DNA from: Devosia sp. YR412
GTDB lineage: Bacteria; Pseudomonadota; Alphaproteobacteria; Rhizobiales; Devosiaceae
Length of the DNA stretch: 64,000 nucleotides
Direction of reading: 5' to 3'
NCBI RefSeq assembly: GCF_900110945.1
Contig: NZ_FOFL01000001.1
Coordinates: forward strand, 744,001-808,000
Shown: piece after piece, positions 5,354 through 22,880 of the stretch
How the letters are laid out: each line of letters opens with the position of its first letter
Numbering within the stretch: position 1 is the stretch's first letter
Program-made: the position numbers and the translations under genes
The notes under the pieces: model-generated
Told to the model about the DNA's origin: nothing
The model's input: the letters and a program-made list of their open reading frames with translations, nothing else
The model's database searches: none

Positions 5354-8300
5354 TTAGCTTGCAGTTGCCATAAGGCTCGCATTGCCACCCGCTGCCGTTG
5401 TATCCACGCAGACGTGGCGTTCGACCAAAAGACGGGCGCCCTCCTCTGCTGACGTCAGCAGCGGGATCAATGTGCCGGTGCGGGCGCTGAGGGCGATGCG
5501 GATGGCGCGGATATTGGCGTCGTCGGCGAAGTAGGCCACGGCATCGAAAGTGCGGGCGTGGCTGAGGGCGTCGAGGTCGAGCTCGGCGAGGATGGCGGTG
5601 TTGCCCAGCATGGCGGCCATGGTGGCCTGGGCCTGCTGGTCGGCGGGCGTGGGGCCGAGGCAGAGCAGGGTGCCGCGCGGGGCGACATGCATGACATTGC
5701 TTTCGCCGGTTGGGCCGGGCAGCGGCAGTGGCGCAAGGTCGACGTGGCTGTGCCCTTGGGTGAAGCGCGGCAGGTAGTGCGGGCCGCCGGCTTTGGGGCC
5801 GGTGCCGGAAAGGCCTTCGCCGCCGAAGGGTTGCGAGCCGACGACGGCGCCGATCTGGTTGCGGTTGATGTAGATATTGCCGGCTTTGACCGAATTGGAG
5901 ACCTGCCGCACGCGCGAGGAGATGCGGGTGTGGAGGCCAAAGGTCAGGCCGTAGCCTGAAGCATTGATGGCGGCGATGACCTTGTCGAGCTCGTCGGCCT
6001 TGAATGTCGCGACATGGAGGACCGGGCCGAAGATTTCCTCTGCCAGGTCGGCAATGCCGTTGATGCGCAGCACAGTGGGGGCGACGAACGTGCCCTGCCC
6101 TGGCGTCTTCAAGCGATGAATCAGATTCCCCGAACGCTCGTAAGTGTCGATATGGGCCTGGATTTTGCTGCGGGCCGCCTCGTCGATGACGGGTCCGATG
6201 TCGGTGGCGAGATGCCAGGGATTGCCGAGGGTCAGCTCGTCCATGGCGCCCTTGAGCATTTCGATGGTGCGGGCGGCGGCTTCTTCCTGGACGTAGAGCA
6301 CGCGCAGGGCCGAGCAGCGCTGGCCGGCGGACTGGAAAGCCGAGGCGAGGATGTCGCGCACGGCCTGCTCGGGCAGCGCAGTGGAGTCGACAATCATGGC
6401 ATTGAGGCCGCCGGTTTCGGCGATCAAGGGCGCGGTGGGGGAGAGGTTGGCCGCCATGACCTGGTCGATCTTGCGGGCGGTGGGCAGTGAGCCGGTGAAG
6501 ACGACGCCGGTGATGGCCGGGTTTGAGGTCAGCGCGGTGCCGACTTCGCCGGCGCCGGGGAGGAGCTGGATGGCGTCGGTGGGGATGCCGGCCTCATGCA
6601 TCAGTTGCACGGCGCGGAAGGCGATGAGTGGGGTCTGCGGGGCCGGCTTGGCGAGGACGGGATTGCCGGCGACGAGGGCGGCCGCGACCTGGCCGGTGAA
6701 GATGGCCAGCGGGAAGTTCCACGGCGAGATGGCGGCCACGGGGCCGCGCGAGGCGGCGAGGGTTTGGGCTTCGGCTTGCTCGGCATAGTAGCGCAGGAAA
6801 TCCACGGCTTCGCGGACTTCGGCGACGGCGTCGGCCCAGGACTTGCCGGCTTCGCGGGCGAGGAGGGCGAAGAATTCGGGCCGGTGGGCTTGGTAAAGGT
6901 CGGCCACGGCGCGGAGGAGGTTGGCGCGGGTTTGCACCGGGGTTTGGGCCCAGGTGGAGGCGGTTGCGGCGGCGATGGCGGTGGCGACGTCTTCGGATGT
7001 GGCGTTGGTGACGGTGCCCAGGATGTCGGTGGGGTTGGAGGGGTTGGTCTGGGTGATAGACCCCCTCCTAACCTCCCCCTGAGAGGGGGAGGAACCGTTC
7101 TGTGTGTGTGCGGCCATTAGTGGTTTAGCATGCCACTGGGTGGTTCCGAAGGCTTCGCGGGCGGTGTCCATGGCTGGGAAGGTGACCGGGTCGGTGAGGT
7201 CGAGGCCGGCGGAGTTTTGGCGGGGGGCGAAGATGGCGAAGGGGGCCGGGATGGCGGTATTGGGGATGGCGTCGAGGGCCAGGGTCTTGGCGATGGGGTC
7301 TTCGGCGACTATTGCAGCCGGGATGCCCTCGTCGGCGATCTGGTAGACGAAGGAGCCGTTGGCGCCGTTTTCGAGCAGGCGGCGCACGAGGTAGGCGAGT
7401 AGGTCCTTGTGGGCGCCGACGGGGGCATAGATGCGGGTGCGGGTGCCGTGGCTGGTGCGCAGCACGTCATGCAGGCGTTCGCCCATGCCGTGCAGGCGCT
7501 GGAATTCGTAACTGTCACTGCCCCGGCCAGCGGAGGCCGCGAGATTCAGGATGGCGCTGGCCGTGTGGGCATTGTGGCTGGCGAATTGCGGATAGATGTG
7601 TGGGGAGGCGAAGAGTTTTTTGGCGGCGGCGATGTAGCTGATGTCAGTGGAAGCCTTGCGGGTGAAGACCGGGTAGCCGTCGAGGCCCATGACCTGGGCG
7701 CGCTTGATCTCGGCATCCCAATAGGCGCCCTTTACCAGGCGGACCATGATGCGGCGATCGAGGGATTTTGCGGTGGCTTCGAGCCAGTCGATCAGCGGCA
7801 GGACGCGTTTGCCATAGGCCTGCACGACGACGCCAAAGCCGTCCCAGCCGGCCAGTTCGGGCGTGGCGAGGACTGCGGCAATGATGTCGAGCGAGAGATC
7901 GAGGCGGTCGGCTTCTTCGGCGTCAATGTTGAAGCCCATGTTGGCGGACTTGGCGGCGATGGCCAATTGCCGAGTCGATTCAACCAGTTCGGCCATGACG
8001 CGGTGGCGCTGGGCGAACTCGTAGCGCGGGTGCAGAGCCGAGAGTTTTACGGAAATGCCGGGGTTTTCGCGTACCGAGATGGATTTGCAATGTGGGGCAA
8101 GGCTGGCGATGGCGGCGGCATAGGCATGGAAATAGCGGGCGGCGTCGTCCGAGGTGCGGGCGGCTTCGCCGAGCATGTCGTAGGAATAGCGGTAGCCGAG
8201 GGCTTCCGGCTTTTTGGCGTTGGTGATGGCTTCATCGATGGTGCGACCGAAGACGAACTGGCTCCCGAGCAGGCGCATGGCCTGGGCGACGGCGGTGCGG

Positions 8301-8764
8301 ATGACCGGCTCGCCGAGGCGGGCGATGGCGCGGTGCAGGGCGTTTTTCGGGCCGACTTCGGGATCGCCCAGAACATCGGCGGTGAGGCTGAGGGCCCAGG
8401 AGGAGAAATTGACCAGCTGGTTGGAGGAGGCGCCGAAGTGACCGGCCCAATTGGAGCCGCCGACCTTGTCGTAAATCAGCGCATCGACGGTTTCGGCATC
8501 GGGCACGCGCAGCAGGGCTTCGGCCAGCGACATCAGGGCGACACCCTCGTCGGTGGCGAGACCATATTCGGCGAGGAAGCTTTCCATCAAGCCAAGGCGA
8601 TTGCCCTTGCGCACGGTGGTGACCAAGGCTTCGGCATGGGCGGAGATGGATTTGCGATCAGTTTCGGAGAGGCCGGTGTCGACGATCAGCTGGCGAACCA
8701 GCGTGGTCTCGTCGGCGAGGTTGCGGGCATGTAGTTCGGTGCGGGCGGCGGTAATGTCGGACAT
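5354..8764 (-). CDS. putA: Bifunctional proline dehydrogenase / glutamate-semialdehyde dehydrogenase PutA
   Basis: Oxidises proline to glutamate in two steps (FAD-linked proline dehydrogenase, then NAD-linked P5C dehydrogenase) with channelled intermediate. It has 1136 residues: helical arm to about 130, the proline dehydrogenase barrel to about 480 (VKGAYWDAEIKRAQ near 340, YAPVGAHKDLLAYLVRRLLENG near 445, written in parts in the family), then the aldehyde dehydrogenase with the catalytic Cys in SAGQRCSALRV near 815 and Glu in AETGGLNAMI near 783, and a C-terminal domain. There is no N-terminal ribbon-helix-helix, so it does not repress itself; the divergent Lrp gene takes that role. I chose ATG 8764 (MSDITAART). 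The linker near residues 556-570 is encoded by a palindromic repeat, which is unusual. Confidence 0.97.
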   Translation of the reverse strand: MSDITAARTELHARNLADETTLVRQLIVDTGLSETDRKSISAHAEALVTTVRKGNRLGLMESFLAEYGLATDEGVALMSLAEALLRVPDAETVDALIYDKVGGSNWAGHFGASSNQLVNFSSWALSLTADVLGDPEVGPKNALHRAIARLGEPVIRTAVAQAMRLLGSQFVFGRTIDEAITNAKKPEALGYRYSYDMLGEAARTSDDAARYFHAYAAAIASLAPHCKSISVRENPGISVKLSALHPRYEFAQRHRVMAELVESTRQLAIAAKSANMGFNIDAEEADRLDLSLDIIAAVLATPELAGWDGFGVVVQAYGKRVLPLIDWLEATAKSLDRRIMVRLVKGAYWDAEIKRAQVMGLDGYPVFTRKASTDISYIAAAKKLFASPHIYPQFASHNAHTASAILNLAASAGRGSDSYEFQRLHGMGERLHDVLRTSHGTRTRIYAPVGAHKDLLAYLVRRLLENGANGSFVYQIADEGIPAAIVAEDPIAKTLALDAIPNTAIPAPFAIFAPRQNSAGLDLTDPVTFPAMDTAREAFGTTQWHAKPLMAAHTQNGSSPSQGEVRRGSITQTNPSNPTDILGTVTNATSEDVATAIAAATASTWAQTPVQTRANLLRAVADLYQAHRPEFFALLAREAGKSWADAVAEVREAVDFLRYYAEQAEAQTLAASRGPVAAISPWNFPLAIFTGQVAAALVAGNPVLAKPAPQTPLIAFRAVQLMHEAGIPTDAIQLLPGAGEVGTALTSNPAITGVVFTGSLPTARKIDQVMAANLSPTAPLIAETGGLNAMIVDSTALPEQAVRDILASAFQSAGQRCSALRVLYVQEEAAARTIEMLKGAMDELTLGNPWHLATDIGPVIDEAARSKIQAHIDTYERSGNLIHRLKTPGQGTFVAPTVLRINGIADLAEEIFGPVLHVATFKADELDKVIAAINASGYGLTFGLHTRISSRVRQVSNSVKAGNIYINRNQIGAVVGSQPFGGEGLSGTGPKAGGPHYLPRFTQGHSHVDLAPLPLPGPTGESNVMHVAPRGTLLCLGPTPADQQAQATMAAMLGNTAILAELDLDALSHARTFDAVAYFADDANIRAIRIALSARTGTLIPLLTSAEEGARLLVERHVCVDTTAAGGNASLMATAS
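7048..7099. repeat. Palindromic repeat inserted in frame in putA
   Basis: The element carries a perfect 8-bp stem with a 5-base loop (CCTCCCCC at 7072-7079, GGGGGAGG at 7085-7092) preceded by CCCCCTCCTAA. A diverged copy lies between genes at 22689-22726. On the minus strand it is read as the PutA segment GSSPSQGEVRRGS between the two catalytic domains, without breaking the frame. Confidence 0.75.
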
Positions 8765-8884
8765 GGGGCTCTCGGGCGCGGGTTGCGATGAGCATGCCAT
8801 GAGTTGGACAGGCGTTTCGTCTGATGATGTGGCGGAATGCTGCGTTCGGCGTTATGATTGGGGCCTACTGCAGGACAAAGCGCC

Positions 8885-22670: not shown

Positions 22671-22688
22671 TTCCAAGGTCGGTGCGTC

Positions 22689-22726
22689 CACCCCCACCTA
22701 GCCTCCTCCTGCAGAGGGAGAGGAAT
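22689..22726. repeat. Palindromic repeat, family B
   Basis: CCCCCACCTAGCCTCCTCCT and AGAGGGAGAGGAA form imperfect arms. It resembles the element inside putA (7048-7099) in order and spacing, with several base changes. Confidence 0.55.
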
Positions 22727-22781: not shown

Positions 22782-22880
22782 CGCCTAAAATCACGCCACC
22801 GGCGTGATTTTGCCTGCAGCCGGCTCGAAGCGCCTAAAATCAGGCCACCGGCGTGATTTTGCCTGCGGCACGGCTCGAAG
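22782..22880. repeat. Two tandem 49-50 bp units each with an 11-bp hairpin
   Basis: Unit 1 is 22782-22830 and unit 2 is 22831-22880; they are nearly identical. Unit 1 contains AAAATCACGCC-ACC-GGCGTGATTTT (22787-22811), an 11-bp perfect stem with a 3-base loop. In unit 2 (22836-22860) one base change makes one mismatch. Each hairpin is followed by TGCCTGC. A related hairpin is at 62574-62598. Confidence 0.85.

Follow-up and report, generated by a model that had tools for sequence, protein, structure and literature searches.

An in-frame palindromic element in the PutA linker of Devosia, at a site where relatives carry an inverted pair or unrelated palindromes

How does a palindromic repeat come to be read as protein in the middle of a conserved enzyme? 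The question is raised by a 64,000-nucleotide stretch of the Devosia sp. YR412 genome (hereafter the window), in which a palindrome lies inside the gene for PutA. The initial annotation, made from the letters of the window, proposed that the repeat is read as part of PutA between its two enzyme domains, at a place that tolerates additional residues, and that it has a relative between genes. It also proposed to align PutA from related strains and to look for other copies in the genome. We analysed the locus, the family to which the repeat belongs and the PutA proteins of other Devosia strains.

A half-element in the PutA linker of Devosia sp. YR412

The gene that carries the palindrome codes for a PutA that scores 1364 bits against the NCBIfam family PRK11904 (cut-off 747) and has Pfam matches to Pro_dh-DNA_bdg, Pro_dh and Aldedh. 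The proline dehydrogenase domain spans residues 192-486 and the aldehyde dehydrogenase domain residues 581-1015. The insert is found at the far end of the interdomain linker, adjoining the aldehyde dehydrogenase domain. The features of the locus are as follows:

5354..8800, minus strand: putA, proline dehydrogenase / L-glutamate gamma-semialdehyde dehydrogenase, 1148 aa, frame intact (ORF, NCBIfam and Pfam)
7054..7094, minus strand: palindromic half-element in putA, called kind A below (covariance model R1, 59.8 bits, E 2.2e-17 in the window, this copy being itself among the 29 YR412 copies from which the model was built)
7058..7096, minus strand: codons of the insert peptide GSSPSQGEVRRGS, PutA residues 569-581, reading GGT TCC TCC CCC TCT CAG GGG GAG GTT AGG AGG GGG TCT (sequence, and alignment of Devosia PutAs with and without insert)
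7072..7092, minus strand: hairpin of the element, 9-bp perfect stem with loop CTC (folding, and alignment of 29 copies)

The insert is thus confirmed as a copy of a dispersed palindromic half-element of 41 nt. It is read in frame in an intact PutA, as the initial annotation had supposed for the repeat. In the hairpin, positions 7092-7084 pair with 7080-7072, the strand reading CCTCCCCCT CTC AGGGGGAGG and then TTAGGAGGGGGT. The stem is indeed perfect, as first described, and folding extends it from the 8 bp given there to 9 bp. The hairpin also matches the model by itself on the opposite strand. A search of positions 6900-7300 against Rfam gave nothing above the gathering score, the best match being DUF3268 with 21.7 bits for a required 65.3.

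We modelled the protein with AlphaFold2, using 31 aligned PutAs (mean pLDDT of the model 80). The model has a coil at residues 562-580, and residues 566-578, which include 10 of the 13 residues of the insert, have pLDDT values below 50; six more segments of PutA also fall below 50, and few aligned relatives lower the pLDDT of any stretch. At the linker, the YR412 protein has residues that the solved PutA 5kf6 lacks. The insert is therefore located in a linker predicted to be flexible, and the fold prediction supports the idea that this position tolerates additional residues.

A family of elements dispersed in Devosia

A 20-base pattern taken from the tail of the element matched twice in the window and never in 100 shuffles. 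In the 3.83-Mb YR412 genome, a pattern for the element with at most three mismatches gave 48 matches, compared with none for its reversed control. The covariance model yielded 69 matches at E <= 0.01 in this genome, of which we kept 63 copies; the other six correspond to the hairpin alone (positions 3-23), and three of the 63 are weak, with E values of 4e-4 to 2e-3. The genome-wide search proposed at the outset thus revealed a dispersed family. Of these copies, 17 are unpaired, and the other 46 are arranged as 23 inverted pairs, each 119-130 bp long. The consensus of 29 copies is TTCCTCCCCCTATCAGGGGGAGGCTAGGTGGGGGTATCC, three of whose six reading frames are open.

The window contains two loci detected by the model, the one in putA and the following:

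22684..22725, minus strand: second, more divergent copy of the element (R1, 36.9 bits), intergenic, overlapped by no predicted gene

This copy corresponds to the relative that had been placed between genes near 22689-22726. It adjoins a 39-nt segment that is repeated directly with a spacing of 49 at 22782-22869, and both repeats contain another palindromic unit, AAAATCACGCCACCGGCGTGATTTT. A unit resembling the latter is also present beside another copy of the element (L010). Elsewhere in the YR412 genome, five copies are clustered in approximately 800 bases (C3:346937-347746), four of them forming two units about 138 bases apart.

The family is present at E <= 0.001 in 58 of 61 Devosia genomes. 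The copies in the PutAs of relatives, which were not part of the model, score 64.0 bits (strain G010), 62.6 bits (G015) and 59.6 bits (G006). The insert is a low-complexity stretch with runs of C and G, as might be expected if its likeness to the family were due to chance or to an assembly artefact. This explanation has to contend with the E value of 2.2e-17 in the window, with the 48 forward matches for none with the reversed pattern and with the fact that further assemblies contain inserts of this family too, some of these assemblies (G010, G006 and G048) having no more than two contigs. As copies exist in other genomes, it is already refuted, and we give it practically no weight.

Palindromes in the PutAs of related strains

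In the alignment of related PutAs, the segment is missing from G071 and G029 and from all 10 outgroup Devosia proteins of our tree, and it is therefore not a conserved peptide of the family. The G071 protein, with 86% identity, is the best single-piece match after the YR412 gene itself and reads ...PMLAEENAATGSAVELRNPA... at this position. Other relatives have an insert, and the finding exceeds a single insertion, since some of these linkers hold the full inverted pair and others a palindrome unrelated to it. In a clade of 18 PutAs, 12 carry element sequence in the linker, one of them in a diverged form.

We distinguished three kinds of linker insert. Kind A, the half-element, is present in YR412, G010, G015 and G006, and also in G074 and G072. 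Kind B is a whole inverted pair with its spacer and adds about 40 residues to the linkers of G030, G048, G031 and G028; G030 is about as close to YR412 as the insert-free relatives. Kind C differs from both in its palindrome, which contains an additional inner hairpin, and it is found in the linkers of G059, Devosia sp. Root635 (G047) and Devosia sp. Root436 (G008). A diverged kind C, recognizable at the DNA level, is located in the linker of Devosia sp. CJK-A8-3 (L065). Kind C is itself dispersed, with copies in 11 of the 12 genomes searched, those in putA of G059 and G008 among them; the YR412 genome has one copy. Between the PutA copies at L032 and L142, both arms of its inner hairpin have changed together (CGACCC/GGGTCG and CGGCGC/GCGCCG), and both forms are found elsewhere in Devosia.

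Inserts are also present in two other places of PutA. In G028 there is an additional kind A insert at approximately residue 510. A fourth palindrome, kind D, is inserted in frame at approximately residue 898 in G008, and a shorter form of it is found in G010, likewise in frame. Copies of kind D were detected in four of eight genomes, including the PutA copies of G008 and G015, and none in YR412. In the AlphaFold2 model, both sites are predicted to fall between secondary-structure elements, 502-507 and 520-524 for the former and 893-896 and 909-912 for the latter. The intact-frame kind A inserts, i.e. those in the linkers of YR412, G010, G015, G006 and G074 and that at the 510 site of G028, are without exception read in the hydrophilic frame, SP-x-QGE.

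Some putA genes are interrupted or incomplete. In the draft genome of G015 (L141), the kind D palindrome lies at approximately residue 898, where the putA frame is broken. The G036 contig (L147) ends in putA just past a kind A-like palindrome, after approximately residue 510 and near the site of the second insert of G028, and that of G072 ends a few codons past the linker palindrome. The putA gene of G039 (draft genome, 84% completeness) is frameshifted and has kind A in the linker.

History of the inserts

We built a tree from 28 PutA rows after removal of the insert columns. We excluded identical duplicates, genes that were partial or broken (G033, G036, G039, G057, G060 and G072 among others) and many outgroup rows lacking an insert, and G015 was represented by the part ahead of its broken site. 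All inserts are found within the single clade of 18 (support 100/100), which comprises four PutAs with kind A, four with kind B, four with kind C and six with none. Among the PutAs outside the tree, those of G071 and G066 have no insert, and those of G074 and G072 have kind A.

Mapping the insert labels onto the tree takes nine changes, for a mean of 11.4 with shuffled labels, and values as low were obtained in 5 of 200 shuffles. The AU test rejects a single clade for kind A (p 3.5e-10), kind B (p 7e-4) and kind C (p 4e-5), on the premise of groups named in advance, ours having been named from the alignment. Nine of the 25 inner branches are poorly supported; the starred branches by themselves force three changes for A, two for B and three for C. 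Thus, the insert kinds do not track the PutA tree.

The hairpins of kind A and of the left half of kind B start at the same residue offset past a conserved PL or PI. As this offset in the linker is identical, kinds A and B may stem from one insertion that was later remodelled. In its full form, this scenario supposes that an A/B element entered the linker once, in the ancestor of the clade, and was passed on by descent. Gene conversion or recombination with other copies in the genome would then have remodelled it, from a half to a whole pair or by exchange of subfamilies, and some lines would have lost it, with no repeated insertion of A or B. It is a real possibility, if somewhat short of the one that we would choose. 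The A and B inserts have partly common flanks in addition to their common offset. Furthermore, the AGGA variant of the YR412 PutA copy is found in 7 of the 52 other YR412 copies that could be scored, compared with 27 of 32 in G010 and 27 of 33 in G015. As this variant is rare in its own genome and common in the other two, the YR412 PutA copy may be old, and the distribution suggests that the YR412 family in its present form did not give rise to it recently.

Synonymous positions also bear on this scenario. Fourfold sites are more conserved in some inserts than in the rest of putA, which would fit conversion from other copies: 15 of 16 sites compared with 0.64 (p 0.008) and 17 of 18 with 0.66 (p 0.006) for kind B, and 12 of 12 with 0.60 (p 0.002) for kind C, these p values being uncorrected for 16 comparisons (six for B and C, 10 for A). 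Nevertheless, the other comparisons are not significant (13/16, p 0.15 for B; 9/11, p 0.1 and 8/9, p 0.33 for C; p 0.11-0.32 for all 10 of A). A single ancestral event also leaves several inserts to be accounted for, as kind C differs in both palindrome and offset, and the inserts at 510 (G028) and 898 (G008, G010 and G015) are elsewhere in the protein. Since kind C, the 510 insert and kind D differ in kind or in site, approximately four insertions into putA are needed whatever the history of A and B in the linker, unless one of them moved within the gene.

Position of the copies relative to genes

We placed 139 copies relative to genes with a codon-usage model trained on the window, and we counted a copy as interior when it had at least 30 codons with a positive score on each side. 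The set comprises the 63 YR412 copies and 76 copies from 40 regions selected in G010 and G015. These regions were picked from the best-scoring of the matches listed for the two genomes (at least 102 and at least 107; about 107 candidates scored per genome), and 59 of their 135 matches, which correspond to the hairpin alone, were left out.

Coding sequence flanks the element on both sides in 3 of the 139 copies, all three in the same PutA linker: one of the 63 YR412 copies and two of the 76 from G010 and G015. For random positions in the YR412 loci, coding sequence was present on both sides in 1320 of 2040 cases. A few YR412 copies overlap the end of a frame by 1-18 nt. Because five further YR412 copies are wholly enclosed by a stop-to-stop frame that was scored, starting 15-40 nt into it from the 5' side, the element may also be read at the N-terminus of some other genes of this strain.

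For a wider search of interior hosts, a kind B peptide was compared with 61 Devosia genomes, and we inspected 20 of the long open frames among the matches listed. The best matches include the PutAs of G048, G028 and G031. None of the 20 inspected frames had a positive score and at least 30 residues on both sides. In 12 of them, at most 26 residues precede the element. At L246, L247 and L264, the score is positive before the element and negative after it, and these proteins may, judging from their coding scores, have been extended at the C-terminus by the element. Among the copies and frames inspected, PutA is thus the only interior host found.

The reading that we consider quite probable is that a non-coding palindromic element is tolerated, with the frame kept, in a flexible linker that receives such elements repeatedly. 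The complete element would be the inverted pair of about 125 bp, with the 41-nt half as the form read in frame in the PutA linker. Insertions would land widely, and those within genes would be purged. The PutA linker and the two other PutA loops would be among the few sites where the open frame of the element amounts to a harmless, hydrophilic extra loop, and selection for PutA activity would maintain that frame. The element would then be a putative passenger in PutA, in keeping with the foreign codons of the insert, which holds both AGG codons of the YR412 protein. The different kinds found among relatives could reflect repeated insertion, recombination between strains and between copies, or both.

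A possible function of the inserts

Alternatively, the element might be kept for a function, if its hairpin, the rare AGG-AGG codon pair and the Shine-Dalgarno-like sequence of that pair slow ribosomes between the two domains, or if the longer linker alters substrate channelling. Several features would suit such a role. The mRNA of the insert region has a predicted fold of -38.1 kcal/mol, for a mean of -29.4 in shuffled sequences (z -2.7; 2 of 200 shuffles equally good). The only AGG codons of the YR412 PutA are the two in the insert, compared with 61 CGC codons. In addition, the insert is at a domain boundary, and every kind found in the linker brings a strong palindrome. However, 6 of the 18 clade members and all 10 outgroup PutAs do without an insert, and fold and codons accompany the element wherever it lands. 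We therefore regard functional retention as improbable. We also considered an internal start at the AGGAGG that would yield a product with P5CDH alone, and this was rejected as no in-frame ATG or GTG follows within the next few codons.

A bolder version would make the linker a recurrent docking place in which unrelated palindromes are selectively retained, the hairpin and the AGG-AGG pair pausing translation between the two domains. We hold this to be unlikely. If true, a single enzyme would on several occasions have turned selfish non-coding DNA into a spacer that serves folding or channelling. With one enzyme, four kinds of palindromes and many species, Devosia makes it possible to ask what turns repeat DNA into protein, candidate factors being the tolerance of the linker, target preference and benefit. 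Natural PutA variants with and without the insert are available for assay.

Comparison with known palindromic elements

Among palindromes read in frame, those of the intracellular genus Rickettsia are the best known. The initial annotation drew the parallel with them, which appears apt as an analogy. In the available parts of two publications, the Rickettsia palindromic elements (RPEs) are described as dispersed palindromes found in frame within conserved enzymes and also between genes (PMC2229807, PMC10969869). Their hosts are many according to the same parts, with 19 reading frames (PMC2229807) and 44 integrations in R. conorii (PMC10969869). By that description of RPEs, the Devosia palindrome resembles them in being in frame in a conserved protein, here an intact PutA, and absent in relatives. 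It differs from them as described there by the genus, by PutA being the sole interior host among the 139 placed copies and by the presence of unrelated palindromes in the same host.

The REPs tagged with GTAG or CGTC are, in the available passages of PMC3733652, short and mostly intergenic palindromes, single or in inverted dimers, some of which are located in ORFs. These passages report that some of the ORFs are the sole ones modified in their species, and that two Xanthomonas recB genes have different REPs at about the same site (PMC3733652). putA is not named as a REP host in section 15 and these passages of PMC3733652. Like the REP superfamilies so described, the Devosia element is short and, in the copies examined, mostly intergenic, with 63 copies that include single units and inverted dimers, 1 of the 63 being interior. 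Unlike them, its consensus, inspected by eye, has neither GTAG nor CGTC on either strand, and the YR412 genome has no RAYT; for these two reasons, we did not file the element under the GTAG/CGTC superfamilies. The search for Y1_Tnp/RAYT (PF01797) found none in the YR412 genome (control positive in 5/14). Among 75 Devosia genomes, this Y1 transposase is absent in 72 and present in three. As YR412 lacks it, a RAYT is ruled out as the mobilizer in this genome, and this negative result weighs against the reading that we prefer.

In-frame palindromes as such are thus already known, as the Rickettsia RPEs and as intragenic REPs. Among the matches listed in our literature searches, no title dealt with palindromes in Devosia or in PutA. 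As far as these searches go, the new aspects are the genus, the focus on a single enzyme and the four kinds of palindromes in it.

Miniature elements of the MITE type are a further term of comparison. No parent insertion sequence or target duplication was identified for the Devosia element, the transposase search having covered PF01797. Its inverted halves, its pairs of 119-130 bp and its TA ends may point to an element of this type. At the outer ends of the inverted pairs, TAT follows the terminal G run in 32 of the 39 parsed ends (22 of the 23 pairs were used, and 5 of their 44 ends were unparsed), which is a MITE-like trait.
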